A stretch of 64,000 nt of DNA from a virus, in IMG/VR virus record IMGVR_UViG_3300006735_000026, positions 1-64,000 of that record. One strand, given 5' to 3'. This document shows positions 4,026 to 46,600 of the stretch, one piece after another (position 1 is the stretch's first letter; every line of letters begins with the position of its first letter). A program made the position numbers and the translations under genes. The notes beneath the pieces were generated by a model that had not been told where the DNA came from, searched no databases, and was given only the letters and a program-made list of their open reading frames with translations.

Positions 4026-4026
4026 A

Positions 4027-4560
4027 TCAACCGATCCTTTGAACTTCCTCAACAACGATTGCATTACCAGTTGCAGCAATACTTACACAACGTTTGACGA
4101 TTGCTTGGGGACCGCTGTAAGCGTAAGTGTAATCAGCAGATGCAGAAGATGAATCGATATCAGTGCTGATTGTGTTTCCTGTTGCAGCAGTGATTTTCTT
4201 GCCAGCGGTGCCAGCAGAAAGGAAGTTGGAATCGATAGCAGGCGAGGTGCTAGCATCTTCTACAGCGATAAAATCTCCAACGGAGAATGGGTGTGTATTA
4301 GAAACTTCACCAAGGTTTGTACCGAGTTGATAGTCTGCCGTACTATCATCCACTGCCTTGACAATTCTTGCTTGTCCAGGTTTGCCACCCTTGAGAATGA
4401 GTGCTTGGTCTTGAATCAAAGTGATTGCAGGACCACCATTAAATGCAACTGTCGCATCACCTGCAGTTGCAACTACGCGATAGAATCCAGTTTGAACAAC
4501 TTGGTATTCTGTAGCATCAGCAGCGATTGCATTGGTGCTTAAAACATTTAAAACTGTCAT
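4027..4560 (-). CDS. beta-rich virion structural protein (177 residues)
   Basis: The protein is Ala/Thr/Ser/Gly-rich and predicted to be all-beta from alternating patterns such as EYQVVQTGFYRVVATAG and DYTYAYSGPQAIVKRCVSI. It has no signal peptide or membrane span. It sits between the small terminase subunit and the Lys-rich structural protein, the usual place for a minor virion protein in this phage group. A late-type promoter lies about 24 bases upstream of the ATG. The exact role (head decoration or tail accessory) cannot be told from the sequence. Confidence 0.75.
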   Translation of the reverse strand: MTVLNVLSTNAIAADATEYQVVQTGFYRVVATAGDATVAFNGGPAITLIQDQALILKGGKPGQARIVKAVDDSTADYQLGTNLGEVSNTHPFSVGDFIAVEDASTSPAIDSNFLSAGTAGKKITAATGNTISTDIDSSSASADYTYAYSGPQAIVKRCVSIAATGNAIVVEEVQRIG

Positions 4561-23251: not shown

Positions 23252-26200
23252 TTACGAACGAACAATTGTCGCATATTCAATTCGTTTAATTCTATATGAT
23301 GCTCCACCGTTACCATTCAGTTTCTCCCCACCAAGAATTGCATATGCTGCTGCATTTGCTCCAGTGCTATCACCGCCTGCATTGGTAAAGGTAACGGTTG
23401 GGTGTAGGTTGTAAGTACCATCAACGGTTTGTTTGATACCATAACCACCATTGGAAATAGTGATTGATGAAACCTGGTCACCCGCAGTTGTCATGTTTAC
23501 AGTTCCTGTTGCTTGAATGTCTCCGACATTCTCAACTGTAACTGTTGGTGTTCCTGTATAGTTTGTACCAGCGTTTTGGATGAAGAAATCTACAACCGTG
23601 CCGTCTTGAGAGAATTCGTACAAGTATCCAGCAATACCAATATTAATGTTGCCAGTATTAAATGGAATAACGTTTTGAACCTGAAGTATAGCATTTGTAG
23701 TATCCCAAGATACCACCGTAGCTTGAACACCCGAAACATCGCCAGTGACAACTTCATTCACGCTATAATTCTGACCATTGCCAAAATTACCATCTAAGTA
23801 GATATTTAGAACAGCAGTGTGCTCAACACCTTCGCTCAGACCACCTGCTGTTGCGATACTTGCATATTTGAATGGAATGCTTGCATCTTTGATCTGATCA
23901 CCAACTTGGAACAGAGTCGTGTTCTGACCACCCTGCGTTTCTTCAATACCATAAAGTGAATTAAATATCCCACCATCCAAACTAATCTGATTCTCATAAT
24001 CAGTTCCAGTATTTACCAGATCAGCAATACCATCACCCGCTCCACTATTCTCATCATCATCTTCAAACTTTCTATCCTGCAATGTGGAAACAGGTTCTGT
24101 AAGAAGAGCGATTGAATCACCTACAGACTGAAGGACCACATGAGGTTGGAATCCAGAGGGAGCACTGGATGCTACACCAGCGTCAAATTGAACAATAGCA
24201 TCTTCGGTAGAAGGAATACCACCATCGATGAATGCTAGTTCATCAACCTCAAATACGACCAAGAGTTCTCTGGTTGTTGGGTTGAAATCATAAACCTTTG
24301 CAACTTTGTTATTTGCATTCTCAACCTTTCTAATAACCCTGTCACCAACACTGAAATTATAAGTTTGTCCAGCATCGAGAATAACTCTCTGATCATAATT
24401 GAAGTTGATACCTCTAGTCAGACCAGTAAATTTACCCGCCGCTTTGGAGGTGTATGAAATAGTCTCAGCATTCAGGATGAAGTTACCAGAACCAGGATAT
24501 GCATCTGTAGAATCAACGTAGATTGTCGAGTCTGATGCAGAAACATTCTTGGTCAATCCAGTCAAATAGATATTTGAAGAATTGAATGCCTGACGAGCAC
24601 GAGTCTTTCTCTTCAGATTTACTAATTTAGTAAAGATGATATTTGGTTGTGACGTATATCCTTTACCAGGATCTGTGACGTTAACACCAGTAATTTCACC
24701 CTGACTGATTATTGCTTCACCTTTAGCACCGATACCGCCACCACCAGTGAATAGAACAAAGGGAGGTTCTTGATAGAATTCACCAGGATTTACAATACTT
24801 ACACTGGTAACTCTACCTGTAGTATCTACTTCTGCCGCACCTTGAGCACCTTGTCCAGTTCCACCACCTTCAAAGATAAGAGTAGGTGGAGTTGCATACT
24901 GTCTTCCTGAATTTAATAGTGATAGACCAGTAATTGTCTGAACAATAGGACTACCTGTTGCACCAGATCCTTCACCACCAAGAATTCTTGCTTTTGCAGG
25001 ACCAAAGAATCCATCACCCTTTTTGGTCATCTTGATGTATGAAACCTGACCAGGAGCATCAGGATTCAGAACAACTTCGCCCTCAGCACCTGAAGGGAAT
25101 TGATCTACTATTGCAGGGACAGTATCTCCCTCAAAGAGAGGAGCACTGTAGAATTTAGGACCAATAGCATATGGATATACAGGATTACCACTACCATCTT
25201 CAGTCATGAAGTAGGCATATGTTCCGTTCGGATACTCAGGAGTTGGACCAAACTTACCGTTGTATTCATCCAAGGTTCCTACACTGGCATCATAGATATA
25301 ATCTTCTGTAAGATCACCAAGAAGATATGCATCTTGCACACTTCTAAGTCCTCTATCTGCATTTGCGTATGAGAACGTGTATAACGCTCTAGGTGCATCC
25401 ACACGAACTGTAATTCTTAACTCTCTTGTAGTTGCATTTGCAAACTGTGAAAGATATGAGGTGTAAGTTACTTCACTACCATCAATGAAATATTGTACGC
25501 CATCACCATACACATAACTTGTAACACCAATATTAGAAGGATCTCCTGTTGAGTGCCAGGAGTTATCCGTTGTTGATAGCAGGAATGTATCAGCATCCAT
25601 GCTTGCATCATTACATTGGAAGACGTAAGTCTTACCTCTTTCCAAATTCAAGAAAGCAGGGCGAGATCCATCAAATTGATATTGACCATTTGACAGTGTT
25701 ACAGCATATGTAACTGTTCCTGTTGTGCTGACACCAATAGTTACTCTGGCACCAGGAAGTTCATTAGTGGTTCTCAATCTGTAAGAAGAAACTTCTCTTG
25801 CAACAGCACCACTAGAATTATATCCATAAGGACCATAGATGGGATATCCATCAAAGGACATACCCAGAACTTTTGAGTGTCCATCTACATGACGAGATTT
25901 ATCAATCGTATTGGGGTTGTTGGTATCTGATTGATAGAAATTTGTGGTGTAGTAATTGTTAACAGGTGGTGTATTATCGACTGCAGAACTGAGACTGATA
26001 TAACCTTCATCACCCTCATATCCAGACATATATCTGTGATAAGCACAATGATAATAAATGCGAGAAGTTTCATCCCCATTCATTATAAACAACATCTGAT
26101 ACGGACTTTCATAATCAGCAGCAGGTGCTGTAGATAATCCAGTGCTGTTGTAATACAGAGCACCACCGTTTAATGTACCATCTTGAGTTGTACTTAAACG

Positions 26201-27394
26201 TAGTGGGTGTCCTATACCCTGTTGATTAGAAGAATCTGTCTGATTCCAAATAATCAGTTGATTACTCTTAACTTGAATATTTTCAGGTGCCAGATAATAT
26301 TGACCAGGAACAAAGGGACCGAACTCTGCAGCATCTGGTCCAAAATCAATATAATATACGTTCAAAGATCGGGGATCATCGGAAATTGTAAATGTAAATC
26401 CGTTTGATCCTAAACATCTATCACCATTAGAGAAAGACGCACCAGTAGATACATTTCTGAGATAGATTCGAGTAATATTATTGAGATTGTCTCTAGAGAT
26501 CTTAGCAATCTCACCTCTAGCGTTACCACCAACCTCATCAACAATACGACCAATTTCAACAGAACCCAATGTCTCATCAACATTAGAAACTGTGAGCATG
26601 ATATTACCATACTCAACTTTTACATTCCAAGTAAATTGCTTGAGATCACCCCAATTAAATACACCATTATCTAATGCAAATTCATCAATTACCTTATTTG
26701 ATTGATAATACCTAACATTGGATTCTGTTACTGAATCGTATGTGTCAGTATTCTTAATATAATCATATTTTACAGTATCAATAGAGAATCCTGCAGGTGA
26801 TCCACCATCGGTGCCCCATTCTGGAGTATGAAGTAAACCACCATTAGATAAGATACCAATTACTTTATCTTTCTGTTCTTCACGAGCGGCAGGATTAGGT
26901 ACATCTTTACCGCCACGATATATAAATGTTTGATCAAATGTTCTATCTACAAGCGAACCACCTCCAGGTGCTGCTTCTGCCTGAGTCCAAGTGGGTTTAG
27001 GATGATTGTCAGATTGAATTCTTAATCTGTCAGTATCAGTGCTAAAAGAACCGCTGGTCGGAGAGTTTGGATGTGATTGCCAAATTCTATTGACGTTAAA
27101 TGATGTCAGAACATTAGGAGTCTCTTGTTCTGGAATAATTTGTAGTCTTAATGGGTCATATCCACGACCCCTTTCAAGAACGCGAACATGAATAATTTTA
27201 CCCGAATCTTCATCGATAATCGGATACAGCAATGCTTCCTGATCAGGTGTGCCACACCCATCAATAGTTAGTCTTGGCGGATCCGAGGGACTATACCCAC
27301 TACCGCCATCTTTTACTCTTACTGCGCGAACACCGAAAATCTCGTCAAAGATTGGTTCGATGACGGCACCAGATCCAGGAACAGTTCTTGCCAT
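23252..27394 (-). CDS. virion protein with cupredoxin-like and YHYH domains (1380 residues)
   Basis: Domains in order: GSGY-type modules at about 25-95; a cupredoxin-like domain at about 355-470 with all four type-1 copper ligands in place (His 396 in GHPLRL; Cys 450, His 453 and Met 456 in YYHCAYHRYM); a YHYH domain starting at about 506 (HSKVLGMSFDGYPIYGPYGY) and resuming near 701-755 (LDEYNGKFGPTPEYPNG). Between the two YHYH halves lies a second, degenerate cupredoxin-like block near 575-675 with no copper ligands. More GSGY modules follow to the C-terminus. It sits between gp8 and the 409-residue cupredoxin-like protein, so it is probably a baseplate-associated surface protein. The copper site is inferred from motif spacing, not shown. 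Confidence 0.85.
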   Translation of the reverse strand: MARTVPGSGAVIEPIFDEIFGVRAVRVKDGGSGYSPSDPPRLTIDGCGTPDQEALLYPIIDEDSGKIIHVRVLERGRGYDPLRLQIIPEQETPNVLTSFNVNRIWQSHPNSPTSGSFSTDTDRLRIQSDNHPKPTWTQAEAAPGGGSLVDRTFDQTFIYRGGKDVPNPAAREEQKDKVIGILSNGGLLHTPEWGTDGGSPAGFSIDTVKYDYIKNTDTYDSVTESNVRYYQSNKVIDEFALDNGVFNWGDLKQFTWNVKVEYGNIMLTVSNVDETLGSVEIGRIVDEVGGNARGEIAKISRDNLNNITRIYLRNVSTGASFSNGDRCLGSNGFTFTISDDPRSLNVYYIDFGPDAAEFGPFVPGQYYLAPENIQVKSNQLIIWNQTDSSNQQGIGHPLRLSTTQDGTLNGGALYYNSTGLSTAPAADYESPYQMLFIMNGDETSRIYYHCAYHRYMSGYEGDEGYISLSSAVDNTPPVNNYYTTNFYQSDTNNPNTIDKSRHVDGHSKVLGMSFDGYPIYGPYGYNSSGAVAREVSSYRLRTTNELPGARVTIGVSTTGTVTYAVTLSNGQYQFDGSRPAFLNLERGKTYVFQCNDASMDADTFLLSTTDNSWHSTGDPSNIGVTSYVYGDGVQYFIDGSEVTYTSYLSQFANATTRELRITVRVDAPRALYTFSYANADRGLRSVQDAYLLGDLTEDYIYDASVGTLDEYNGKFGPTPEYPNGTYAYFMTEDGSGNPVYPYAIGPKFYSAPLFEGDTVPAIVDQFPSGAEGEVVLNPDAPGQVSYIKMTKKGDGFFGPAKARILGGEGSGATGSPIVQTITGLSLLNSGRQYATPPTLIFEGGGTGQGAQGAAEVDTTGRVTSVSIVNPGEFYQEPPFVLFTGGGGIGAKGEAIISQGEITGVNVTDPGKGYTSQPNIIFTKLVNLKRKTRARQAFNSSNIYLTGLTKNVSASDSTIYVDSTDAYPGSGNFILNAETISYTSKAAGKFTGLTRGINFNYDQRVILDAGQTYNFSVGDRVIRKVENANNKVAKVYDFNPTTRELLVVFEVDELAFIDGGIPSTEDAIVQFDAGVASSAPSGFQPHVVLQSVGDSIALLTEPVSTLQDRKFEDDDENSGAGDGIADLVNTGTDYENQISLDGGIFNSLYGIEETQGGQNTTLFQVGDQIKDASIPFKYASIATAGGLSEGVEHTAVLNIYLDGNFGNGQNYSVNEVVTGDVSGVQATVVSWDTTNAILQVQNVIPFNTGNINIGIAGYLYEFSQDGTVVDFFIQNAGTNYTGTPTVTVENVGDIQATGTVNMTTAGDQVSSITISNGGYGIKQTVDGTYNLHPTVTFTNAGGDSTGANAAAYAILGGEKLNGNGGASYRIKRIEYATIVRS

Positions 27395-27397
27395 TTA

Positions 27398-28627
27398 TCA
27401 ATTTACAACGTTGATAGTACCATTCATCAGAGAATGAATAGTGCATTGATAATAAAGTGTGTTGGGAGCGTCCATGGGAACAGTCCAGTAGAGAACACTA
27501 GTTCCGCTACCAGTTTGACCAGTGGTATATGCGCTTCCGCTCAAACCTTGTGTGCTTTGAATTCTGAAGGGGTGTTGCCCACCATTAACAGAGTTATCAA
27601 ATGCATAAGTAAACCCTCTATGTACATAGACTGTAGGGTCATCTTGTGTGGTTGGGAATCCAGGACCACTGAATGTGAAGTGATTGGCACCATTAGCACC
27701 AATTTCCCACCAAGTAATAGGACTTCTAACAACTGTCCATTGAGTTCCGTTATAGAACAACGAATCACCCTGTACAATACCAGTTACATCCGTGTCTGTC
27801 AGAGCAGCAAGGGTTGTAGGAATAGTACCATCAAAATTAATTGTTAAAACATCACCTGTTACTGAGGTTGCGATGTTTGTACCACCAGAAATCGTGAGAC
27901 TATCTGTAACGGAATTTGCTGTAGTGCTACCAGTATCACCAGAGAATGTAGCAAACAGATTTTGATCTGCTCCACCGCCTCCACCGCCTGTTTGATCAGC
28001 AGGAACCCAATTGCTACCGTTCCAAGCAAGAACTTGATCGGCAGTTGGTGCTGATGTTGTAGTATCTACATCACTCAGAAGATTAATACTAGAATATTCT
28101 GTAAGAAGTTTTACTCTAGTATCGCCAACACCACCAGCGGTGATATTCATATTCACATAAGGATTATCATCACCATCAACAGTGAAGTAATAACCCGTAT
28201 AGGATGCTGCTGCTGGTGCGTTACCAAGAGCAGAATATTCATTTTTGTACTGAACTTTTGTAGGGAAGTCAATAACACCAGTTGAACCGTTAAAGGTATT
28301 AACGATACTTCCGTTACTAACAGTAAAGTTTCCAGTTCCGTTGGGAGTAATGGCAATATTCCCGTTGGCAGAAGATACAATATTGTTACCGTTAACATCC
28401 AGGTTAGCAGTAAGGTTTGTATAGTCAGAAGGTAAGAACGTCGTTCCGTTATACCTTAAGACTTGCCCTACAGCAGGATTGGTAACACTAACTGTTAAGT
28501 TAGTGCCGTTCCCTAATGCAGCATATACTTCATTGAAGTTGTCATTGATCTTGTCACCACCGACTCGTAGGGTATCACCTGTGTTATCATTAGCGGAGGT
28601 TCCAAGACCGAGTGTTTGTTTAGCCAT
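27398..28627 (-). CDS. short fibre-like virion protein with C-terminal cupredoxin-like domain (409 residues)
   Basis: The N-terminus (GTSANDNTGDTLRVGGDKIN, then DNFNEVYAALGNG) is typical of phage fibre attachment segments. The middle is Ser/Thr/Gly-rich beta repeat (NGNIAITPNGTGNFTV) with a Gly6 linker near residue 217. The last 100 residues look like a cupredoxin: VYVHRGFTYAF, His 352 in GGQHPFRI, then Cys 395, His 398 and Met 401 in YYQCTIHSLM. The C-x2-H-x2-M spacing is that of amicyanin rather than plastocyanin (C-x2-H-x4-M). The gene has its own late promoter at the end of the giant gene and is four bases from the 1380-residue gene. Confidence 0.85.
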   Translation of the reverse strand: MAKQTLGLGTSANDNTGDTLRVGGDKINDNFNEVYAALGNGTNLTVSVTNPAVGQVLRYNGTTFLPSDYTNLTANLDVNGNNIVSSANGNIAITPNGTGNFTVSNGSIVNTFNGSTGVIDFPTKVQYKNEYSALGNAPAAASYTGYYFTVDGDDNPYVNMNITAGGVGDTRVKLLTEYSSINLLSDVDTTTSAPTADQVLAWNGSNWVPADQTGGGGGGADQNLFATFSGDTGSTTANSVTDSLTISGGTNIATSVTGDVLTINFDGTIPTTLAALTDTDVTGIVQGDSLFYNGTQWTVVRSPITWWEIGANGANHFTFSGPGFPTTQDDPTVYVHRGFTYAFDNSVNGGQHPFRIQSTQGLSGSAYTTGQTGSGTSVLYWTVPMDAPNTLYYQCTIHSLMNGTINVVN

Positions 28628-28647: not shown

Positions 28648-28655
28648 TATTTATA
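28648..28655 (-). promoter_or_regulatory. perfect T4 late promoter (TATAAATA) containing the stop codon of gp7
   Basis: The minus strand reads TATAAATA, an exact match to the T4 late consensus, 21 bases before the ATG at 28627. The TAA within it is the stop codon of the 6181-codon gp7 gene. It is the best late promoter in the window. Confidence 0.7.
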
Positions 28656-31600
28656 GGATCTCTGGATCGATAACCTCTTCACCGTATAGGGAAAGATCTG
28701 GTGCAGTCCAATCATCAGGAACAGATGTTTCAACGATGACTTCTGGATTCTGATAACCAGAACCAGCATTGCTCATCTCAACACCCGCAACACCTACCAG
28801 TGCGCGTACTTGACCATCGAATCCAGAAATAGAGTCAAGTCTTACAGTAGGTCTAGATGTGTAGTTGGAACCGCCAGCGGTAACCTGTACCCTGTCAATG
28901 AATCCACTTGTCAGGTTCGCGGACGCTTGTCCGTCTTGCCCGAAGACAGATCCCAGATAATCGAATGTAATCAGGGAGTTTGAAGATTCAATCAGAGCAA
29001 CTTCTCTTGGTGATGTCTCACCTTGAATCTCGATAAAGTCACCAGATTCAATTGGCGGAACAACAGTTGCTGCTTCAACGTCTGCTTCAGAACCAACGTA
29101 GGAGAATGCGACGAATGTCGATCCAACACGAGGAATTTCTGAGAAGATAATTCTAGAACCAACAATTTCAAAACCAACACCAGGTTCCTGCAGAACACCA
29201 TTGATAGAAACAATAATGTTATTTTCAGGTCTAATGACGCTCGATTGAACACCATCAGTCAGTGTCAGTGAATAGAATACATCATTACGCTTGAGGTTGA
29301 AGGACTGACGTAAGGAGTCAAACTCAAACGAAATATCATCTAACTGTCTCAACTTACCAACATAGAATCCAGTGAAGGATGCGCCAGGATCAGGTGCTTC
29401 AGTGAATTGAATTTCATCAGAGAATGCTGTGAATGCATTCGTTGCACCAGGAGGTTGCAGAACACCATTGATAAAGATGAGCAAGTGACCAGCAGGATCA
29501 GGAAGATACTGTGTGCCATTGTCAGTGGTAAGTTTGAAGTTGGTTTGAGTGCCATCAAATCCTTTGAAAGCACGTTTTGTTCTTGCCTTCAGTTCAACCT
29601 TAGAAAGAACCGCTGCACGATATCCGTCAAGACCCTTGATAGAATCTTTAACATCAAATGTTCCACGAATATCACTCAGGTAGATTCTTCTGTTAAGACC
29701 AACTGGGCGAATATCCTGTACAAGAGCGGCAGCAGCGCCAGCAGTTGTAACCTTAGTGCTGATCGATGCATAACCAACAGGGAAACTGTTACCAACACCG
29801 TAATCACCAATCAGATCACCATTACTGAATGAACCAACAACTTCAGTGATGTAGATATAGTTGTTACCAAGATCAACTTCAGTAATAATACCGTAGTTGG
29901 AAGTATCTTGATTACCGTTAACAACCTTGTAAATTCTGTTGCCCACAGTGAATACATTCAATCCACTGACGATAGCAACTCCAAGTCTGATGTATCCTTC
30001 AGATGCGATTCTTTGACCCACCTGAACATCGAGACCAGCATACTTAGAAACATCCAGGTATTCTCTAGAGGACTCAGGATAGACAACCGAAGTCTTCTCG
30101 AAGGAACCGAGTAGCGACGGGGTATCTACTGTCAGAGTACCACCAGCATTGCTGGTTACTGCAGCTTGTGTCTTGAGGAATCCAGTAGGTGTAGCAGAAT
30201 TGCCACTTGTATATCCCTTGAATGGAATATCATTAGCGAAGTCACCTTTCAGATCAATTACATGCAATCTATCCTCTTCTGCACTGATTTGTGCAGTTGT
30301 GGAGTTTGTTGCACCGACGAGGGTATCTGTAACTGCCCAAGGACCAGCGGTAACACGAACATCAAGATACTTGTAGTTTGCATCTTCATGGAATCCATAA
30401 ACAACGCCAGTAACAGAAGGAGCACCTTGCTTGGTAACTACCTCACCCATAATGAATGGACCATCGGTGATAGTACCATCAATTCTAAATCTCTTATAAA
30501 CTTGAACAACCTTCGCTTCATTGACGGTAATACCTTCCAATTCAGCGTAAGAGTCACTGTTGAGACCGTAGATATAATCAGAACCTTGCAGACCACCAGC
30601 AATTCCGACAGGAATGTCTCTAACTCCATATGTCTTAGCGACCAAGGAAATGCCATTGACCTGAATAAGAGTTGTGTAGTAACTATCAGTTGTTAATTGC
30701 TCACGAATGATATTCAATCCATAACGAATAGATCTTTGAATAGTTGCCTTGGTGTAGTCACCTGCCTTAGTTGCATCATAGTAACTATAGAATCCAGCAC
30801 TGGTAGAAGGAGAAGTCAAAGTACCGTCGAGTGCTTGACCCATGAACCCTTCTAAGAGATTGATTGCATAGTTCTTAATGTTGTATTCAGTATCAGCGTA
30901 GAAGATTTCTCCACTGACTGCAGTGTATGGATCCAGAGCACCCTTATTGAGTTTTGCACCCCAGAGGTATGCACCAACGCTTCCATCACCAGTCCAGTTG
31001 TTTGCACCAGTAGCAGAGTTAACAATAACAGATGATCTGAGTGTAGAGAAACCAAATCCGAACGTTGTTGTGATATATGCTCTATACCAACCATCACCAT
31101 AAGGAACAGCACCAAATGCATCGCCTGTGATACCCCCTTGAGGAATAAACAGAGATCCTGTGGTTCCAGCGTTGAGATTGAGATCGAAGAAGATGTTCTG
31201 TTCAGAAGCAGCTCCAGGATCAAGGGTCAATTGGAATCTTACAGATTGAGATCCAGCAGTCTTGAAGAATACTGAATATGTGAATGTCTGAGTAGCATCG
31301 ATTCCAGCAGAACCTGTGTCAAAGGTTTCATTAGAAGTGTCAAACTTAACTGTGCCTGAGTCAAACGTTTCAAATGCAGTCAGACTGTAGTCTCTGAAAG
31401 TATCATGAACACCGCCATTTGAGTTTGCTGCGAAGAATTTCTCTGCAGTAACTGTAGCGTCAGGAGCAGCAATGCTGTTATTTGTAATCAGGAGTGAATC
31501 AACACCACCAAGATCATTCACCTGCCAGTTAGCAGCAAATGCCTCAGGATTAGTGAAGAGATTGATACCAGAAATTTGACCTGCGATGTTAGAAGTGATT

Positions 31601-34600
31601 GTTCTTGCCTTAGCAAGGATCTTAACGTTTGCAGGAGAAGTGTACCAATCGTAAGCAGAACTTACACCGCTAGTTGCGATAGTTCCTGTTGCACTAGAAG
31701 GTGCAGACAGAGTATCTGCTGCTGCCCATGCAGTGCCAGTAAATGCACCGACGTAGAGGATTTCATCTTCAGCATCCCAGTCGAGAACAGTTGCAGTTCC
31801 ACCACCGCTAGATGTAACCGTCTCACCAACTACAAAAGCACCAGTAGAAGCACTCAGAGTAATTGTATAAGCAGATACACTAACATCAACATCAGTAGTG
31901 ATCAAGTCATGTACGATATCATCAACTAAACCTTCAACAAAGGTGTCATAAGTCCATGCACCAACACCGAACTGTGCGATTGCTTGTGTGGAAATCTCTT
32001 CTTTGTAGTAGTTCTTGTTATACAGAAGATTCTTAGCAGCACTTCTTGCTTCATCCTTACCAGGTGCAAGGATAGCAACAGAGGTATCGACAAGATCTCT
32101 GATTCTGTAGATAACGTTGTTGATTGCTGTTGGGGTCAGGACATCACGGTATGCAGTCTGTGATGTGAATTGTGCTGCATACTGATCACCAGTTACAGCA
32201 GCGAATTGATCATACAGGAGATTTTGTACTGCTCTCTCAGCAAATGTCTTGAGTAATTCAATAGAGTAAATGGTAGCAAGTAACTCATTCTCAATGTGAT
32301 TGATAGTGAGGTTTGCATTCAGATACAATTCAATTGCTTGAATAGTGCTATTAGTACCACCAGTTTGAAGATCGGAGATAATGCTCAAGAGGATCAGTTT
32401 AAGATCTCTTTGGCAAGTTGCAGCACCATTAGAACCAGGATATGTCAATGCGCTGTAGTTAACACCATTCAGATCGTATGTAAATTCTTGAGTAGTGAGT
32501 CCAGTGATTTCTTCAGCAATATAATTTCTGTTGAAATAGATTCTATCAGCAGCAATTTCAAAGTCCTCATCAGTAGGAGCGATAATATCATTGATTGTTG
32601 TAATCAGCGTGTCAATAGCGGATTGTACGTTTGCACAGTTGCCACCATCTTGAGTGATACCCCAATCGCCAACAATGATTGCATCGGTATTAGTTTCATC
32701 GAGATCACCAGTAATCGCTTGCTTAGCATAATAACCTAAACGGTCATGTGCGTAGATTGACTGGAATGCCTGCAGTCTGATGTGTTGCAGTTCTCCATTA
32801 GCACCAACATAGAAGTTACCAGCAGTAATTGTATTTCTGTTACCACCATTTTCAATGTCATTAGCGATAGCATCGAGGATTTGTCCCAGGTCAGTCTTAC
32901 AACGGAGAGTACCATCGGTACTGCCACCATTCTGGTTTCTAGGCATATCCTGAGCGAGATCAGGATATCTTGCGATCATGTCTGCCGCTGCCTTATCGAC
33001 GATTGGTGTGCGGTTTGCACGGATCAAACCAGCAGCATCTCTGAATCTATACTGAGCATCACCATCAATTTGATTAGAATAAACCAGATCATTTACAGTA
33101 TCTTGATAACTGACTGTGAAGTCTGTTTCCAAGAATGCATCAACTGTTCCACCTTGGAATTCATATGCAGGTTCAACTTTGGTTACGCTTGCGAGGTGAT
33201 CGACAGGAGAACTCAGATTTGCGTTCTCAAGAGTATCAGTGATGATATCCATCAGGTTACCAACTGTGCTCCAGACATCAGCACAATCACCAGTGGTGTA
33301 ATCAAGAACCGTAACGGCATTTGCAGTTGCAGAAACAAATGTGTGTGCGTACTGCTGACCGACAGGTGAAGCACCAATATTAACAGTGATCGTAGTTCCA
33401 GTAACTGCTTTTACAGGGAGAACTGCATTGTATGCAGGATCAGGAGATCCATCACCAGCAATTGCACGAGGATATGCAGTTTGACGATCATTATTGTCTT
33501 GAGCACAAGTGAATGTGAGACTTTCTGTAGCAATACCAATTCTTGAAGCAGTTGTCAGAGAGTGAGATCCGATTGTAAGGACCAAATCACCTGATGCTGC
33601 ATCATAGGTTGTTGGTGCAGTGACATTGAACTGTGTGAAGGAACTTGTGGAAGAATCAGTGATTGTAGTATCAGTCTTCTGAGTCAGTCCATGAGAACCA
33701 GTAACAGTCCAAAGAGTATTTGTAATAATGTATTGTGCAATTTCTTTTGCTTTATCAAATGCCCAAACAGTTTCTACTTGCTCACCATCAACGTGATTGA
33801 TTGTGATAGGAGTTGTAGTTCTATTGACATACAGTGCTGCTGTATCCCAAATGTGACTATTACCACCATTGCGAAGGTCTTCAACCAACTCTTCAATAAC
33901 ATCTACAATATCATCTTCACAATTTACATTTCCGCCAGGAATTGCTAATGAAGGATATTGCTGAGTCAGTAAGTAAACAGTTTCCTTTGCAATGAAATCT
34001 TTGTTTGCAAGTAAGAGGTTTGCAGCATCATAATATCTCTGAGTCTTACCAGCGAATCCAGCAGGAGCGCCTGTAACTCTAGAAGTTGCAAGGATTGCAT
34101 CGTTATTGAATTCTTCACCCTTAGTGAATCCTTCAGAACCAGACCAATCATCAACATAGGTTTGACCTTCTGTACCATCAAAGTGAAGAAGTAACTTAGT
34201 ATTTGAATCACCTTGGAAGATGCCTGCTGGTGCAGTGAATGTACCAGTGTAACGAGCATTAGTAGAAACACGGAACTCATCGACATAACCAGGGAATACT
34301 GAAGCAGCGTTATAAGTAGCACCAATTCTAATTGGTTTGGTTGATCCATAGTTAGAAGCATCAGAGTAATCACTACCCTCTTGTGTTCCATTGAGGAACA
34401 TCTTAGTTGTACTACCGCTTCTGCTGATAGCAACGTGATACCAAGTTCCAGCAACTAAGTTTGTTGTACCAGTGATTGTAACACTACCATTGTTGTAGTA
34501 TTTCAGGTTTGCACCGTCGAGATACAGATATGGTGACAGTTCAGTTGCTGTTGTTCTGAAGTCAAAGAGTGTTTTACTTCCTGCAGCAACAGAGAGAGGT

Positions 34601-37600
34601 TTGATCCAAAGTTCAACTGTAAATGCACCTGTTCCGAAACCGAATTCGGTAGAGGTAGCGTAACTAATATACTCATCAACGGGGACTGCTCCAACATTAA
34701 CAGTGACTGTTGTAGAAGTAGTTGCGGTGATAGTAAGTGCCTGACCAGATGCAGGGTCAGTAGCACGAGGATATGTTTTATTGGAAGTGTTATTATCTTG
34801 ATCACAAGTAAATGTAATGCCATTGTCTGCAATGGTTACTTTATTACTAGTAGTCAGAGAGTGAGTTCCAATGTTAAGAACTAAGAGTCCTGAGAGAGCA
34901 TCATAAGTTGTTCCTGCTTGAGCAGTAAATGTTCCACTTGCACCAACAGATGCAGTGATTGCATTAGTGACACCACTAACAAAAGTATGAGGAGCAACGC
35001 CAGGAGAAAGTGCTAAACATGCAGTTCCATATCTCTCATTGTAAGTATTGAGACCTGCGCCAGCAGTAAAGGTTGCTGAATGATAATCTGCACCAGTAGA
35101 TTGAGTTCTACCAATCTTACCAAGATACAGGGTTCTTCTTGCTTGGTTGTAACCAATAACTTCTGCTTTAGTATCAGTGGTTCTGATTATCTGACCAGCA
35201 CCAAAGAATCCACTACCAACACTATCTTTGAATGTTAGTTTTCTAGTCTTACCAGGTTCATTTGCAAAGAAGTCAGCACTAGAAGTACCATATTCTAATT
35301 TGTAGTTACGAATAAATTCGTCTTGCTGAAGAGCACCAGATGCATTGTCGTAAGGGATTACGAAGTTATTGATAAGTTCGTTTGATGGGAAACGAATATC
35401 AAATGCAGTGGAGTTATCAGTGAAATCAACAATACTTACAGTTGATTTAGAAATATCATCTAAGACGATATTTGGATAAGTTTGTGATGTAATTCTGTTG
35501 AACAGCAGACCGAAGAAGGATGAACCTTCAGAGATGTTAACCTGTCCGATAAACTCTTGAGTTACAGGATCTTGATATGTCGCTGTAGATGTAATCTGAG
35601 CAACAACACCAGAAGATGCGCCGATGATAACATCGTTGAGTTCGATATCATAAAGACCAGGTGTCGATTGATATGTACCAGCAGTCTTGCTAAGAGTTAA
35701 GTCATCGGTGACAGAAATTTGTGTTCCGTAGATCGGAATATCTTCCTGTTGTGCTACTGGTTGAGTACCATCTTCACCCCTGGTTACACCAAGTGTTGTG
35801 GAATCAGATCCATCAGTAATAGTATTGACAGTAAAGATTTCAGATCCGAACTGATACTTTTGACCTTGGACAAATGTGCCAGCAGGAACAGGTGCATCTG
35901 CACCAGACGCAGTAGTTACAACTTCAAAGGTAGTAGTTGCAGCACCAATAGTGTAACGAAGATCGGCAAGAGGTGTTTCCTGACCTCTTTGCAGGTTGAT
36001 CTGTTCAACTTTAGCAGTATCACCTTGGAGATTAGTAACTGTCTCACCAAAAGCGAACAATCCAATGTTAGTGATTGGAGTATTAGTTGCCAAGTTAGCA
36101 GAGAATCCAGTTGCACCAACTGTGCAAAGTTCTCCGATAATGAACGTACCTTCAGTTACATAACCCTCAATGACATCACCAACAACCTTAGTTACAGTCA
36201 ATCTTGCTGTAGAAGATACACCGATCAGAGTATTACCTGTGTAAGGGAAGATACCACTTTGATTGGTGAATGTGAAACTTACCGTACTAATTTGATTTAC
36301 GGTAACATTTACATACTTGACGCTTGCAGGGGGTTGAGGTGGTTCGCTGAATACAATGGAATCTCCTTGAATTTCAAACGAAGTGTTTGGAGTTTGTGCA
36401 ACACCATTCAGAACAATCATCAACTGATTAGCGTTAGCAACAACGTTGCTACCAGAAACAGTCAGAGGGAATGCAATTCTTTCGCCATCAAACAGATTTG
36501 AAATATCATCAATACGCTGTACGACAGAAGTCAAGATGTTCTCTGAAGAGGTAAGTCTCTTCTGACGGAACAGAACTTCAGTATTATTGAACTCTGAATA
36601 CAGAGGTTCAACCAGCGAGAAGTTTTGAATGTTTGGAACGATTGATTCTCTTGCAAGTTCAACCGACTTAGTTAACTCAAAATCAGTAATCTTGTTAGGA
36701 ATTGAACCATACTCATTCAGATTCAACTCACCAAATACTTTGAACGAAGCGGGATGGACGTTCTTGATTAAGATATCCTTCCAATCGTCAATAGAGACAG
36801 AAGACTTAACAGCGTAAGAGAAGTCCTGATAGTAGTAAGAGTCTTGAATCTTTTGAATGATCTCAGAAGGCTTACCAACGTCATCAATAAATTGACCTGT
36901 AGTCTTGGTAATAGAACCAATCTCCAGAACACCTTTTGCGATCTTAAGATCACTAATGATACCAGAGGACTTAGAAATTACACCAGTTACTCTTTGATTT
37001 GCAGAGAAATCACCAGTGTAATCAACAATCTTAAGAATTCTAGGACCAACCTGCCAACCAGAGTTAGTAGAAACATAACCAGTCGCAGTTGCAGTCTCAA
37101 ATGTATCACCTTGATAAACCAACTCACCTTCAAGGAAAGTAGAAGTGATAACGTTTGCAGTTGCTGCAGCACCGAAAGATTCAGTCAGCAATGATTGTCT
37201 GCCAACACCAGCGTTAGCAAAGGTAATTGCATCACCAAGTTCGGCGTTAGCAGAAGTGATTGCAAGTTTTAACTGATCATCTTCCAGAGAGTTTGCACTA
37301 CCTGTGATTGCAAAGTAAGTTGTAGTAGAATTCAATCTACCCAAAGCACCTGCTGCCAGAGGGAAGTCAGCACCGTCACCAGTATCAGTTACTGTAAGAG
37401 TGACTTCAGATCCATTGACAATACCATGAGGGAATGCAAACTGCAGAAGACCCAAGTCAAGGTTAACAACATAGTTGAAAGAAGACTTCAGTGCAACTGC
37501 GGGTTCGGAAGAATAACCTGAACCAGGATCCTTTACAAGGATTTGATCAATACGACCATTTCTAATTGTTGCCTCAGCAATAGCACCAATACCACCGCCA

Positions 37601-40600
37601 CCTGTGATAACAACAGCAGGTGCCTGTGAGTAACCAGAACCAGGATTGGTAACAGTGATACTGTCAAGAATACTAGTAGATGTTAATTGTGCGTTGATCG
37701 GGAATGTGATCTCAGGACGCAGTGTATAGTCATGAGGATAATCATAACCAAAGTTGTTGTTCTTAAGTTTCTTAATCTTACCAACTTTATCACCTTTGGT
37801 GAAGATAGAAGCACCTGTACCGAAAGGAGGAATAACAACCTCCAACTCAGCACCAGATCCAGTCAAACCAGCACCCAAGATACCATCAATTGCTTCAATA
37901 TCAATCGTTGCTGTTGTATATCCTTTACCAGGAGAAGTAACAACAACTTCTTGAACTTGACCAGGGATCAGAACACCTTCAGAATCAGTGCCATCAGCAA
38001 CTAGGATAGAGACTAAACCGCCCTCACCATCTCCACCGATTGGAACGCCATTATACACACCAGGAGCGTATTCAGTACCAGGTTCGTTGATATCAACTCT
38101 TTCAATTTTACGAGAAGACTGAATGCCTGTTACGATAGGAAGTCTGGAGTAGAAACCACCAGCATTGACAATTCTGATGGAATCGATAGGACCAACTGCC
38201 TTTGTGGAAGAGGTGCTATAAGAAGATTGTGAAACTGTTGCGACACCTTCAGGTTCGTTGGGAAGTAAGAACTTAAAGACGTTATCGCCAGTAGTAATTG
38301 TACCACCAGAAGTATCTGTGACAGTAAAGGTTCCCAGATAGGGAGAATCAACAATATCAAGATAACTACCAGCAGCGATAGGAGACTCACTACCAGTTCT
38401 GGAAGGATCGAAGTAATATGAGATATTAGTTACAATATCACGATCAACTTTCAGTTTTACAGTAGGAGTGGGTTGTCCTTCACCAGTCAAACCAGGTGTT
38501 CCAATTCTCTCAATAGAGTTGAAGGAATATTCCAGTTTGAACAGATTATCTTTGGAGAACGACAGGTTTGCACCAGCCATAGAAGAGTGACTGAGATCAA
38601 ACAGATACTGGTGACCATAGTACATCTTCAAGACAGGAGACTTGACGAAGATGCTTACACCACCTGCTGATGTTGCAGGAGCAGTGATTGCTGCTGCGCT
38701 TAACTTGTATGTAAATTCCTTAGAACTTACTACGCGATCAACAGTGAATGATCCATCATATTCATCATATGTGACACCACCAGATTCTTGAGATGGGTTA
38801 CCATCAACATTAATATTCTCACCTGCTGTCAGATAATGCTTGTCAGCAGTAATTACATAAACTTCATCAGTATTAGCAACTGCAGTACATTGCAGAGTCT
38901 TGCTTAGAGTAGAAACTAAGGTGATCTTCAGAACACCAGTAAGGTTCGTAATCTGAGCAGTAGTAAATGCTGCATTGAATGAAATATCAGATGCTGTGAT
39001 GTTAACAACAGATCCAACGATGAAAGATGATGATCCAGAAACCTCTTCAATCTTAACACTGTAGAAATCAGTATTGAAAGGTTTAAACGTAGCGAAAGAA
39101 TCAAGATTCTGACCGCCACCTGCATTATATGTTCCGTCTAAATTATACTTGTCAAGATCAATATCGAATGTGCCAGGTGTAGTATTGTCAATCTTCTCAA
39201 AGATGTAATCTGTAATATCATTGATATCTTGAGGTACAGGACCAGTGATACCGTAAGTGCTTTGCTCTGCAAATTGCTCAGTAACCAGATTACCAGTATT
39301 CAGATCATCAGACCAAGCATTGTTATTGACAGCAACCAATACTTTATTATTGACTTTATCAACGCTTAAGATATATCCACTATTGACAAAAGTTCCTGCA
39401 GCATTGTTTAAACGCAGTTTTGCACCAACAGTGAAATTGAATGCTTGGTTGATAGTAAGTTCCTGAACATTGTCGATCTTGACAGTGTTAGTAACTTTCA
39501 TGTAATAACGGTTTCTGACAACTGCAGTTACCTTCAGTTTTTGAGATCCAGGTGAAGGTACTGTAGAAGTTCTAGAACTCCACTCATCAACAGCATATGT
39601 CAATGTCTCAGTGTCTTGTGCTAACGTAATTGTTGCATCGTCAAAGTCTAAAGTTTGCAGTCCAACATCACCCAGAGCAAGTCCGATATTAGTTACGGTA
39701 AGAGTTGATCCTGTGACAGGAGTGATAGCAGATCTACCAAAACCAATTCCAGTATTAGTTTGGACACCCTTATCACCAAGTCTTGCTGCATCGGAGTTTT
39801 TATCAGTTTTGATACCCCAACCGATGTAGTCAATGTAGTCATAACGATTCAGGTTAGTTGTAAACCAAGCGGTATCAACCCAACTGAACGCAAGACCGTA
39901 TGCACCAGAAGCAGGAAGTGCCGAGACATCGCTAGGAACTGTAGGAGTAACTGCTCTGTTTCTAAGTCTAATGTTGTCGAAGTATCCTTGGAACTGTTCG
40001 TTCTTACGGAACTGTCCAAGAGTTGTGCTTCTACCAGGAATATTACCGAAGAACAGATCTTTGTTTCCAAGACTGGTGCTTGCAATAGTACCAGTGAATA
40101 CCTGAATACCATTGATGTATCCAGTGAAACTATTACCAGATTTCTGAACTGCAACAAATTGCCAGGTATTATCGGCAAACATAGTTGTCGATACTGACTG
40201 TAGTGCGCTACCTGCAGAATTAAGAGCAGTTGTGTTATTTGTAACAACTAATTCCAGTTTGCCACTAGAAAGATCATAGTACAACCAGAGACCACCAGTA
40301 GAAACGGTAGCATCGCCAATCGCCATCAATGTGACTTGAGTTTGACTATGAGTATTGTACTCAGAACCATTCTTATAGACCATGAATTCACAGGTCCAGT
40401 CATCATTCAACTTAGTTCCAAGTTGTGCCGCAGGAATCTTGATATTTGCATTTTCCCATACAGAAGGAGATGCAGTTTGATATGCAGGCATGTATGCCGC
40501 ATTTGCAAGATACTGAATTGCACCATTGGTTCCAGTATATGTGGCAGTGTAGTGAGAACAACTATCACCAGTTTCACCAGATTCAAAAGCGAAGATGAAT

Positions 40601-43600
40601 TCATTTCGGTTCCAGGAAGTTTGACCGAATGTATAAACATCACCTGAGTTATCAACCGCTAAAGCATGTGCTGAAATACCTTCAATATTATTCTTATTAA
40701 ATTCATTATTGGTATGAGTCTTTAACTTACCATCATAACCAATTTTGACAGTATCTACAGTTTTGTATGTTGTAGTATTATCAGTTCTGCTGAATGCTAC
40801 GTTCAGGTCACCGAAAATGTCAATGACACACTTTTTAGCAACTTCAACAGTCTGACCACTAGGAGCAACATATCTGTAGTTCCAAAGAAGATCTCCAGTT
40901 GTATCGAATTTACCAACCCAGAAACTATCTTTAGTAGTATTGTCAGACTTGAGTCTCAGTGTTGCAGAAACATAGCACTCTTTAAACTCATCACTGACCA
41001 AACTTACATCGAGGAAGGAATATAAAGAACTATTGACTTCCTTAATCCATTCAACAGTAATTGCACTGGTTCCGATAAGTGCTTTACCGAAAGATACTCT
41101 AATATCATCATTACCAGAAGCATCTGCAGTTTCTAAGACAAAGTAAACTGCATCGTCAAGAACAATCAGGTCGCGAAGTTTTTCTGACTTAGAAGAAGTC
41201 GAAATTTTTCTCTTTGCAGCAAAATTACCAGTTGAATCAATAGATGCGATGAATGCATCATATGGATTTGCTGAGTTGGTATTTGTAAAACCACCAATAA
41301 TATAACGAGTATCAGAATATCTCTTGATTGCAGTTACATGGTCTGCACGAGTAGAACCAGAGATACCAGCATAACCTTTTTGGAAATTCAGAGTTGCACT
41401 AAGTCCATCAGCAGCCTGAGTGTATTTTGCAAGAATGATATCAGGATTATATGCAGCAAGAATTGGAGCATTGGGTTTGTTTTCACCAACTACCCAAATG
41501 TTATTGCCACTAACATCAATATTATTGAATTCTGTATAAGTTTCACCTGTTTGACTTTCTAAAGTCTTCTCCCATTCTTTTACTCCAAGAGCAGAGAACT
41601 TAGAAACAAATGCAACTTCATTGCTATTGGCATCTAAAGTTTTACCACAAACAAAGAGTTCTTTATCATCATTTACGACAATATCATTAACTTTTACATA
41701 ATTTTGATTTGCAATAGTAGATACATAATAATCTGCTTTTTTGAATACCTGAGGATGACTTAAGATAACTCTAGGGTTCTTAGTATATCCAGAACCAGAA
41801 TTAACAATGTTAACTGTTTCAATCGATCCAACAGATGTAACTACTGCTTTCAATTCTGCCGATTCTCCATCACCATCAATAATAATGGTAGGAGGAATCT
41901 CCTCATCGTATCCAGATCCACTCTGTTCAATTACGAGTTCTTCAATACCTTTTAACTGACGAACAACAAACTGCTTGTTTGTGTTGTCCATTACAGGATT
42001 GTAATTCACATAAACCGTATCGCCAGCAGCAATGTTATGTGGAACTTGTGTTTGAACAACACCATAGTTCTTATCACTTACTGTTTCAAAACCATAAGAT
42101 GTGATTGTCTCACCAGTAATTCTAGAAACACGAGCAGATACGCCAATGCCCTCAGTATCAGTATTGTCAAATGTTAGAATGTCATTTACCTGATAACTCT
42201 TACCAGGGTTTTCAACAATGAATCCTGTTACAGCAGCATCTTCAAACTTGGTAATAGTTTCAACTTCAATATCAACCTTAGAATCGAATCTTACTGAAGG
42301 GAAGTAATCGAAGAGTTGTAAAGGAGATTCTTCAAACAGTTGATCGGGATCAGCAGTCTCTGCTGCATCGATAATACCGTCTCTGTTCTCGTCTTCTACG
42401 TCAAACAGGAGAATGTCACCACCCTCAGTGGTTAGGGCGTTTGTAGAGGCATTTGGTGCCCTCTCAACGTCAATATCAACGTTCTCATAGGGATCTCTGT
42501 AGCGGACAACACCTGTAGGAATATTTTGCTGTACAGCATCTTTATTCAGGTTCCAAGAATCAACAACTGAGTTGAAATCTGGACCCATGACATATGGGAA
42601 CAATGCATTACCTAACTCGGTAGTGTCAATAGTGACAAAATAGCAATACCTACCTTCTGGGAAGTCTGGTGTCTTACAGAAACGACCATTATACTGATCC
42701 AGATCACCTAAACCAAAGACATACTCATAGTCTTCAATAAACTTACCTGCTGGTTCATCAGTCAGTAAAGGTCCAGCAGTTCTAACAGGATACGGATTTG
42801 TATCTGCATTATAAACAATATTTGTCTTCAGACGGTATGAAGTATCAAGTCTAGTGATTTCAGATGATTGATCTGTAGGATCGGTGTATCCATAAGGACC
42901 ATAGATGGGGTTACCGTCAAACGACCAACCAATAATAGGAGAGTGTGTTAACTGATCTTCTTGCTCTCTGATATCACCATTAGTATTTTCAAATAAGTTA
43001 TCACCCAGAATATATCTCAGTCTCTGAGGATTGGAAAGGTGTGCATACTCACCACCATACTGATTATTGAATCCAGCAAATACAGCACCCTGAGCAGAGT
43101 CAAATGTGGTGGTTTGCTCTAAGTTGTATGTCCATTGGAATACATTAGAACTAAATGTCGCATTGTTACCAACAGATGTCAAGTTAATCAGAGTTGTACC
43201 CTGAACGTAGTTGATACCTCTGTTCAGAATTTCAATACTAGTCACCCTACCAGCATTTTCACCATCAGTATCGATAGTTGCACGAGCAAGGGCACCGAAA
43301 CCATCACCTTGAATTGTGATTTCAGGAGCAGTTGTATATCCGCTACCTGCAGAGATGATAGCGATAGAAATAATTCTTCCGTTACTAACGATTGCTTGAG
43401 CAACAGCGCCAGAACCAGAACTCAAAGAAATAGTGGGTTTGGAGGTATAAGATGCACCACCCTCATCAACAGAGATAGATCTAATAGGACCACGAACAGA
43501 TGCGGTTGCAGTTGCACCAGTACCACCGCCACCAACGATAGTGATTGACGGTTGTGAGGTGTATCCTGTACCACCAGAATTCATAAGAATCCTAGAGACA

Positions 43601-46600
43601 ACACCCTTAGTGATAATAGCAGTTGCAGCAGCGCCAGAACCGCCTCCACCGACGATAGAGACCAGAGGGGATGAAGTATATCCAGATCCACCTGCATCGA
43701 CGTTAATGGACGTAATAGAACCATCAACTACAACACTGGCCGCGGCACCCGCTCCACCACCACCAGAAACGGTGATTGTAGGAGGAGATGCTGCATCATA
43801 ATCAGAACCAGCATTAGTAATATCGATTGAAGTTACAGGTCCAAATGTTTTAGTCAAACTAGACTTGTAAGACCAAATAGATACGCCATTGACCCATGTA
43901 CCAATAGGACCAGGAACAATAGTGTTCTTAGTCGAAATTGTTTGAGGAACCAGAGGGAATCTGTTTAATTTACGCTGGTTACCAGGTAACAACGCAGATC
44001 CAGGGAAAGGACCAACTGCATAGTTGGGAATACCAGTAGATGCAACATAGACAGAGTTGTCGTTAAAGAACGAGTTCTGTACGTTAGTTGTGTAAGGTCC
44101 AATAGAATTAAGAACCGCAGCATTATCAGACTTACCTTTGTTCAAGTCAACTGATACTAAGATATTACCCTGAGGAATAACGGTAGCAGGAGCAGGAAGT
44201 TGATATTGGAATACAGTTTCACTGTCTCTAGAGGTAACAAAGAAAGATCCGTTGTAAATGATTGGGTTTGCACCATAAACGGTAACCTGATCACCAACCA
44301 GCAGACCATGTGGATTGGAGCAGGTAATCGTTGCAAAACGATTGTCGATACCACCGAAAGTTACATCAGTGACTTCAATCAGTTTTTTGACGTTGTACAA
44401 CCAGGTTCTAAGTTCTGGTTTAGTAGATGTACCACCAAGTTTAGATACGGTGAGTTTATCACCAGCAAGATAGTAAGATCCAGTGTCAGTAAGAGTCGTT
44501 TGTTGTGCATCGACAATACCAACAACATTCAGAACTACTTCCTGTGCAGTTCCTTTATTGATGAAAACAGTAAAGTTAGATGATACAGGTGTAGCAGAAT
44601 CCCAGTCCTCAACAACACCATTTACAGAACGAGTACATTCGATGAACTGGTTAAGAGACTTTTCCTTATATTGAACTACTTCTGATCCACTGATTACAAA
44701 TTCACCGTTTCTTTCTGGCCAACCAATGGTAGAGTCAACTGTAATGACGTTATCTTCTGTTCCGAGAGGTTCTGCAAGTTTTGTCTTATAAGGAACTGTG
44801 AATGAACCCGTAATGGTTTCTTCAGACAGAACAAGTTCAAAGATCTCAACTTCAGAAGTTTTGATAGAAATATAGTTTTCAACTAGAGCACTTGCATCTC
44901 TGATGTTAGGATCTGCAATATCCGCTTCTTGAGTCAGCAGACCATCTTTAATATTTGTAGGATCACCACTTACTAATGTGGCACGAAGAATCGTATCAAT
45001 AGACCAAGTTGCAGAAGATGGTTTAATGATTTGATCTTTGGGGTATGAAATGCTGATCTGTTCTCCGTAGAGAAGTTTGAACAGATATGCAACACTAAAA
45101 GAAGTACCCTTAGCAGAATAAAAATCTTTTACAGACTTAATTGCTGTACGAACATCAATCTTCTTGTAATCCAGTTCAGGAACATCAGGAAGGAACTGTT
45201 CGGTATATTTGTCTAAAAGTCTCTTGATAAAGAGAGCATCAAGACACTTGACATTATCATCAATGGCAGCAGGCATTGCCATTGTGTTATTTGAGAAAAT
45301 AGCATTACCACTTTCTGTGTATGCGGTTATGCCACTTGCCGCTCTGGCACAACCAACAAATTGTGCTTTGGTATATCCAGAACCTGCTTTATTAATAGAG
45401 AATCCAGTAATTTCGTTTAGACCAATCTCAACAGATGCTTCTGCTTGAGGGGGTGACTGGATAACGACTTGTGGTGGATTAGCAGCACTATATCCACTAC
45501 CAAAGTTGTTAACATTGATATCAGTGATTCTACCGTTGAAGATAGATGCTGTTGCAGTTGCACCAGTACCACCGTTAGTTCTGTTATCAACAATATAAAC
45601 TGAGGGGACATCTTCATATCCACTGCCACCACTCAGGAGTTCAATGCCAATAACACGTCCATCACCATCAACTTGAGTTTGGAGAACTTGAGCACCAGTA
45701 GGATCAACTACAGCAATTCTAGGAGTAGTTGTATAACCCTGACCAGCATTCAATACATTAATACTAGTAATTACACCATTGGTAAGAACTGCTTGAAGAT
45801 TTGCTCTGATAGGGTTAGTTCCTATCGGTTCATCAACATAAATCTCGGGTGCCGTAGTATATCCCTGACCACCATCAACAATAGGGATAGTTCCAGTAAT
45901 AGCACCATTAGAAATGGTTGGAGTGCCAAGAACAGCACCACCAGGTTGCTTAAACGTTACTCTAGGAGTAAAAGTATATCCACTACCAGAACTGACGATA
46001 TCAACAGCGGTGATACTACCATTGGTAACAGTTGCCTTCAGTTCAGCAATTTTAGATCCAGCAACAGTAGGATTCTGAATAACTACGGTTGGTGGGTTAG
46101 TATCGCTATATCCTCTACCACCATCGAGAAGAGTAGATGATTTGATACCATTTACAAGAGCAGTAGCATTTGCACCAGTACCACTATTGATAGCACTGAT
46201 ATTAACTTTAGGTGGATATTGGAATCTATAGTTACTTCCATTTTCATTGATAGAAATAGAAGTTAACTCTCCAGTATTATTGATACGAGCATAACCAATT
46301 GCTCCAGAACCAAATGAGGGGATTGGTGCCTCAATAGAATACAGAGATAAAAATCTTCCGTTTAGTGGTGCTTCATTAAAGATGAAAATATCACCATCTA
46401 AGAAGTAATCAACTTTAGGAATTAAAAGTTTGTTATCATAAACAGCAATTACATATTCATCAACAATAGGTTCATATTTTGCGCCATTTCTAGTCAGTTT
46501 GAACTGAGTCTTACCCTCACCAAAAGAGTTTGAAATATTATCAGTACCAACGATAGTATTTTCAATAAAACCACTCAGGTGGGTAATATAAGTCGCTGAA

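Follow-up and report, generated by a model that had tools for sequence, protein, structure and literature searches.

The window analysed here is a stretch of 64,000 nucleotides of viral DNA (positions 1 to 64,000 of the IMG/VR record IMGVR_UViG_3300006735_000026, a viral contig of 73,532 bases), which encodes a gp9-type and a gp10-like baseplate protein next to each other (Table 1). The gp9-type protein is the cyanophage gp9 baseplate wedge/tail fibre connector: phrog_677 covers it end to end (E 2e-192), the T4_gp9_10_N profile (PF07880) matches residues 3-69 with 36.2 bits against a cut-off of 25, and among PDB entries, T4 gp10 and gp9 match its N-terminus. A full-length phrog_677 match together with the T4 gp9/10 N-terminal domain is the combination that characterizes the gp9 baseplate connector of Kyanovirus, and both are present. 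Similarity of T4 and its close relatives to the window gp9 is limited to approximately residues 1-43, and the C-terminal part of the protein is therefore not T4 gp9; the two proteins have in common the N-terminal ~70 residues and the genomic role, whereas the C-terminal domain of the window protein is a predicted cupredoxin. Just upstream of gp9 lies a 6181 amino acid ORF (28651-47196, minus strand), the product of which contains numerous repeats and appears to be a giant protein of the baseplate.

Table 1. Features of the gp9/gp10-like region, with positions given in the window
Feature	Position	Strand	Basis
gp9-type baseplate wedge/tail fibre connector protein, 409 aa	27398..28627	-	phrog_677, PF07880, PDB N-terminal match
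Residues 1-70, baseplate-attachment segment resembling T4 gp9/gp10	28418..28627	-	
C-terminal predicted cupredoxin domain, residues 306-409 (~104 residues)	27401..27712	-	AlphaFold2 model, structural matches, PDB profile matches
His352, predicted equatorial copper ligand (GQHPFRI)	27572..27574	-	aligns with ligand His of plastocyanin 2plt; invariant in A1
Cys395, predicted thiolate copper ligand	27443..27445	-	conserved; plastocyanin alignment
His398, predicted equatorial copper ligand	27434..27436	-	conserved; plastocyanin alignment
Met401, predicted axial copper ligand	27425..27427	-	Met to Gln is the sole single-ligand change
gp10-like subunit of the baseplate wedge (phrog_708; 1380 aa), next gene downstream of gp9	23252..27394	-	
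Second cupredoxin-like site, gp10-like residues 372-458	26021..26281	-	HMM domain E 4e-4
Third, degenerate cupredoxin-like copy, gp10-like residues ~554-677	25364..25735	-	HMM domain E 1.3e-3
YHYH domain (PF14240), gp10-like, best stretch residues 674-733	25196..25375	-	63 bits vs cut-off 25

The C-terminal domain was modelled with AlphaFold2 from an alignment of 54 sequences drawn from the window and the fetched loci, giving a pLDDT of 96.6 and a pTM of 0.88, compared with a pLDDT of only 35 for a single-sequence model of the entire gp9. The best structural matches of the model (VIA-align) are to the N-terminal cupredoxin of the Hyphomicrobium nitrite reductase (6tfo, 6tfd and 2dv6; Z ~10, rmsd 2.2-2.3 over 89-91 aligned residues), with rusticyanins at Z 8.3-9.4 and two-domain laccases and one multicopper oxidase among the other listed matches. 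Rusticyanin and Hyphomicrobium NirK are thus the closest solved folds (Z 8-10 over ~90 residues), but they share 21-22% identity with the gp9 domain and are soluble proteins or enzyme domains, and the ligand loop of rusticyanin is longer. A Foldseek search again retrieved cupredoxins, with Ig-like folds further down the list, as expected because the domain is a beta sandwich, and in BFVD the same domain was found in other cyanophage tail proteins. The model accordingly has the Greek-key beta-barrel of a cupredoxin, and the fold match and the sequence alignments together predict that the four putative ligands are brought together at one site.

Profile comparisons relate the domain to several copper proteins. 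Profile A4 matched plastocyanin 2plt in the PDB (E 2.7e-5), with His, Cys, His and Met all aligned with the gp9 ligands, as well as amicyanin (E 7e-5), rusticyanin (E 1e-3) and others; profile A1 matched amicyanin with E 4e-5. The His ... Cys-x(n)-His-x(n)-Met/Gln set thus lies at equivalent positions in the plastocyanin alignment, which is in register, whereas the alignment with amicyanin shifts the first His by two residues. The gp9 domain scores under the gathering cut-offs of PF00127 (Copper-bind) and PF13473 (Cupredoxin_1), and the window gp9 gene reaches none of the curated cupredoxin cut-offs; L185, a relative with a fused subtilase domain, passes both the Copper-bind and the Cupredoxin_1 cut-offs.

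The window also encodes a plastocyanin (1971-2294; PF00127), which the gp9 domain matches with an hhalign E of 1.4e-4. The two differ in that the plastocyanin has a C-x2-H-x4-M loop and the gp9 domain a C-x2-H-x2-M loop, and in that the latter is below the Pfam cut-off, has no signal peptide and is fused into a structural protein. Fusion of the phage's own plastocyanin gene was considered as the origin of the gp9 domain and set aside, given that the similarity is only distant and the domain is common in other phages.

The original prediction, made from the sequence, had described an amicyanin-type copper site in a cupredoxin layout at the C-terminus of a virion protein. Most of this description holds: His352, Cys395, His398 and Met401 were placed exactly, the spacing in CTIHSLM does differ from that of the window plastocyanin (CAPHKGAGM), the AlphaFold2 model and the PDB profile matches to copper proteins agree with the layout, the ligands would, from the predicted cupredoxin fold, not lie apart, and phrog_677, PF07880 and the N-terminal PDB match identify the presumed virion protein as a baseplate protein. 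The term amicyanin-type has to be confined to the loop spacing. The gp9 domain resembles amicyanin in the cupredoxin fold, the C-x2-H-x2-M loop and the profile similarity (E 4e-5 to 7e-5), but scores 12.5 bits against the 110.2 bits of the amicyanin equivalog TIGR02657, has Pro in place of Asn after the first His and is part of a phage baseplate protein, where nothing points to methylamine dehydrogenase. By predicted fold and ligands, the domain is a cupredoxin; by the TIGR02657 score, it is not an amicyanin.

In classical blue-copper proteins, the first His ligand is followed by Asn. Asn or Ser at this position is usual rather than universal in the cupredoxin superfamily and is not a defining trait; in the domain family studied here, neither is the rule, as Pro directly follows the first His in 258 of 269 domains. 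The second sphere of the thiolate is therefore predicted to be unlike that of classical blue-copper proteins.

Two simpler accounts of the motif were tried and rejected. A disulphide within the gp9 chain is excluded because C395 is the only Cys among its 409 residues; the aligned columns likewise hold a single Cys in 239 of the 269 domains with the complete His-Cys-His-Met set (HCHM). As for chance occurrence, apart from gp9 and the gp10-like protein, the long ORFs of the window contain two other C-x2-H-x2-M strings, both of which fail the domain profile. The motif in gp9 is, judging from the homologous domain family with its invariant ligands and from the high-confidence cupredoxin model, not a chance string.

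A tblastn search with the C-terminal 106 residues retrieved 343 phage records, nearly all from cyanophages. Most of the matching proteins carry the annotation baseplate wedge tail fibre connector, with tail fibres, tail spikes and hypothetical proteins also represented, and among the phages matched are an Actinomycetia phage and the podovirus P-GSP1. The domain is hence not peculiar to the window phage but is a recurrent module of tail proteins of cyanophages and other, mostly marine, phages.

In an alignment of 16 diverse domains with 29-70% identity to the window domain (A1), eight columns are invariant (P25, G32, F37, H46, Y87, C89, H92 and M95), and these include all four ligands; the hypergeometric chance of four named columns falling among the top eight of ~101 is near 2e-5. 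Because of its diversity, A1 was divided into A2 and A3 for the pattern scans. The peptide patterns with which A2 was run against viral contigs contained no ligand residue, and 76 of the 78 distinct domains at the loci found in this way have HCHM; the A3 patterns contained ligands, so that the A3 counts are not independent evidence. Over all loci, HCHM is present in 269 of 291 distinct domains. The original prediction depended on the four ligands being retained in homologues, and free replacement is not what these counts show.

The exceptions are informative. Most of the domains that lack HCHM are truncated in the alignment or have lost at least two ligands (KSDP, LAVA, TSS-, YCY-), and the sole change of a single ligand among the 291 domains is that of the axial Met to Gln, found twice: CTNHSKQ in L239 (residues 1810-1927 of a long ORF) and CHSHTGQ in L255 (residues 151-257). 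Blue-copper proteins of the stellacyanin type naturally have Gln as the axial ligand. As read from the sequences, the ligands are substituted in the manner of a type-1 copper site and not in that of a motif with a purely structural role.

The neighbouring gp10-like protein bears on the question whether the fold could serve without metal. Its second cupredoxin-like site has predicted ligands H396, C450, H453 and M456 (GHPLR ... CAYHRYM), which are conserved in homologues, and the baseplate may thus hold two kinds of copper site, in gp9 and in the gp10-like protein. In the third copy, all four ligands are lost, and a direct listing found no C-x2-H-x2-M in 25 of 26 homologous stretches; ligand loss is in this way mostly joint. 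A tandem of cupredoxins at another locus (L132) likewise combines a copy without ligands (3647-3970, KSDP) with an intact one (4001-4303). In L071, an additional intact copy is found where the third copy of the gp10-like protein lies. The occurrence of intact beside emptied copies suggests that the cupredoxin fold can be kept without copper. One could argue from the emptied copies that the gp9 domain, too, is an Ig-like structural module that binds no metal in vivo, the more so as the cytoplasm of cyanobacteria is expected to contain very little free copper. However, the ligands are among the most conserved positions of the gp9 domain and change singly only from axial Met to Gln, whereas drift of one ligand at a time would be expected if the metal were irrelevant, so that the observed pattern speaks against a metal-free module and we consider that reading distinctly unlikely. 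Conversely, if the fold can persist without copper, strict retention of the ligands elsewhere needs a metal-dependent reason. Given the conservation and the model, we find it likely that the gp9 domain binds copper, and only somewhat less likely that the site is a true type-1 site.

The gp10-like protein also contains a YHYH domain, and a review of jumbo phages, in which cupredoxins do not appear, lists YHYH as a predicted zinc-dependent tail hydrolase (PMC7824862). In the Actinomycetia phage DSL-LC01 from lake water, a protein of ~456 amino acids (L086:3041-4411) combines YHYH with a cupredoxin domain, in what amounts to a shortened form of the gp10-like arrangement of cyanophages. Two further phage proteins (L185:863-3937 and L085:2267-4321) consist of a subtilase (Peptidase_S8) with one or two C-terminal cupredoxin domains.

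Outside phage records, the domain was found at 18 loci in bacterial genome records (Flavobacteriia, PS1 clade, Neomarinimicrobiota and others), where HCHM is present in all 23 counted domains. By their N-terminal sequences, several of the proteins resemble lipoproteins, and some contain CHRD or Lipoprotein_15 repeats; at least two of the bacterial records (L260 and L274) are phage-like instead, the latter with collagen repeats and a Peptidase_S74 domain. The secreted cupredoxin lipoproteins of Flavobacteriia and others (L264, L267 and L275) belong to the same subfamily, with HCHM in a C-terminal domain, but, unlike the phage baseplate gp9, are cellular and probable lipoproteins. In a Bdellovibrionales metagenome-assembled genome, such a probable lipoprotein of ~145 amino acids (L275:3800-4246) is almost the cupredoxin domain alone.

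Published mass spectrometry places a relative of the window gp9 in the virion. In the S-SZBM1 virion proteome, the baseplate wedge protein S-SZBM1_206 (498 aa) was detected with 9 peptides and 24.9% coverage (PMC9146016). It corresponds to PP650_gp070, a match by lengths and gene order across two numbering schemes: PP650_gp070 is equal in length, and its neighbours equal S-SZBM1_204, _205 and _207 (511, 615 and 532 aa). PP650_gp070 carries the cupredoxin domain with CTIHSGM. The published virion evidence accordingly concerns the S-SZBM1 relative, not the window phage itself (PMC9146016). Because S-SZBM1 is reported to be without long tail fibres (PMC9146016), a role solely as a socket for these fibres is unlikely for the domain. 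In the S-CREM2 proteome, ORFs 120-127 are without a cupredoxin domain, so that this second proteome lends no support.

The explanation we favour, and regard overall as quite likely, is that gp9 ends in a predicted cupredoxin with a complete type-1 site and serves as a copper-holding, exposed module of the baseplate. H352, C395 and H398 as equatorial ligands, with M401 as the axial ligand, would make up a complete type-1 (blue) copper site. The N-terminus would anchor gp9 in the baseplate wedge, with the copper domain at the opposite end of the chain; in T4 gp9, the long tail fibre is held by a domain at that end. Gp9 could be assembled in the apo form in the host cytoplasm, which is low in copper, and take up the metal at lysis or later. 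The metal-stiffened module would then be exposed at the baseplate rim, where it might attach fibres, contact the host surface or both. In T4, gp9 is a trimer that occurs in six sets; if the same applied here, a virion would have up to 18 copper sites, and more with the gp10-like protein. The specific role as a copper-stiffened binding module is tentative, and we put it somewhat short of even.

Other uses of the same site can be envisaged. The host-facing position of the site and its conservation in many, mostly marine, phages would also fit copper piracy or copper-guided docking, in which a host copper-uptake or surface protein would recognize the copper-loaded baseplate, by analogy with the iron-binding HxH motifs proposed for the tail fibres of marine phages (PMC11705849). 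In that Ferrojan horse proposal, a transition metal is likewise assigned to a tail component, but the metal is octahedral iron bound by HxH repeats, as opposed to a predicted His2-Cys-Met copper site within one gp9 domain (PMC11705849). For copper, however, no host receptor is known, and the domain occurs in phages of very different hosts (the Actinomycetia phage and the podovirus P-GSP1), which makes a single copper receptor improbable; we hold docking of this kind to be unlikely.

In cellular proteins, type-1 sites act as redox centres, and the strict ligand set, together with the axial Gln variants, would keep the site redox-competent. A blue-copper centre that responds to the redox state or to changes driven by light in the vicinity of the photosynthetic host, and so contributes to baseplate triggering, is nevertheless very improbable in our view: the baseplate genes of the window give no evidence of a redox partner or of a second redox cofactor, and a phage with a non-photosynthetic host has the domain as well. 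We are likewise doubtful of, and rate as fairly unlikely, the broader notion that most marine cyanomyoviruses carry tens of such centres, the copper state of which (loaded or empty, oxidized or reduced) would control attachment or baseplate triggering.

No report linking cupredoxins with phage tails or with cyanophage structural proteins was found in the open-access literature surveyed, which takes in neither preprints nor most subscription journals and does not establish priority. The nearest published idea is that of iron on tail fibres (PMC11705849). The sequence and model evidence indicates that the infection machinery of the viruses of marine cyanobacteria probably carries copper. The gp9 and gp10-like proteins, labelled so far by analogy with T4 only, thereby gain a concrete, if predicted, chemical feature. 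If copper is indeed bound, marine viruses of a very abundant group would have a redox metal at the end of the particle that contacts the host, with a bearing on cyanophage adsorption, virion stability and the speciation of copper in seawater.
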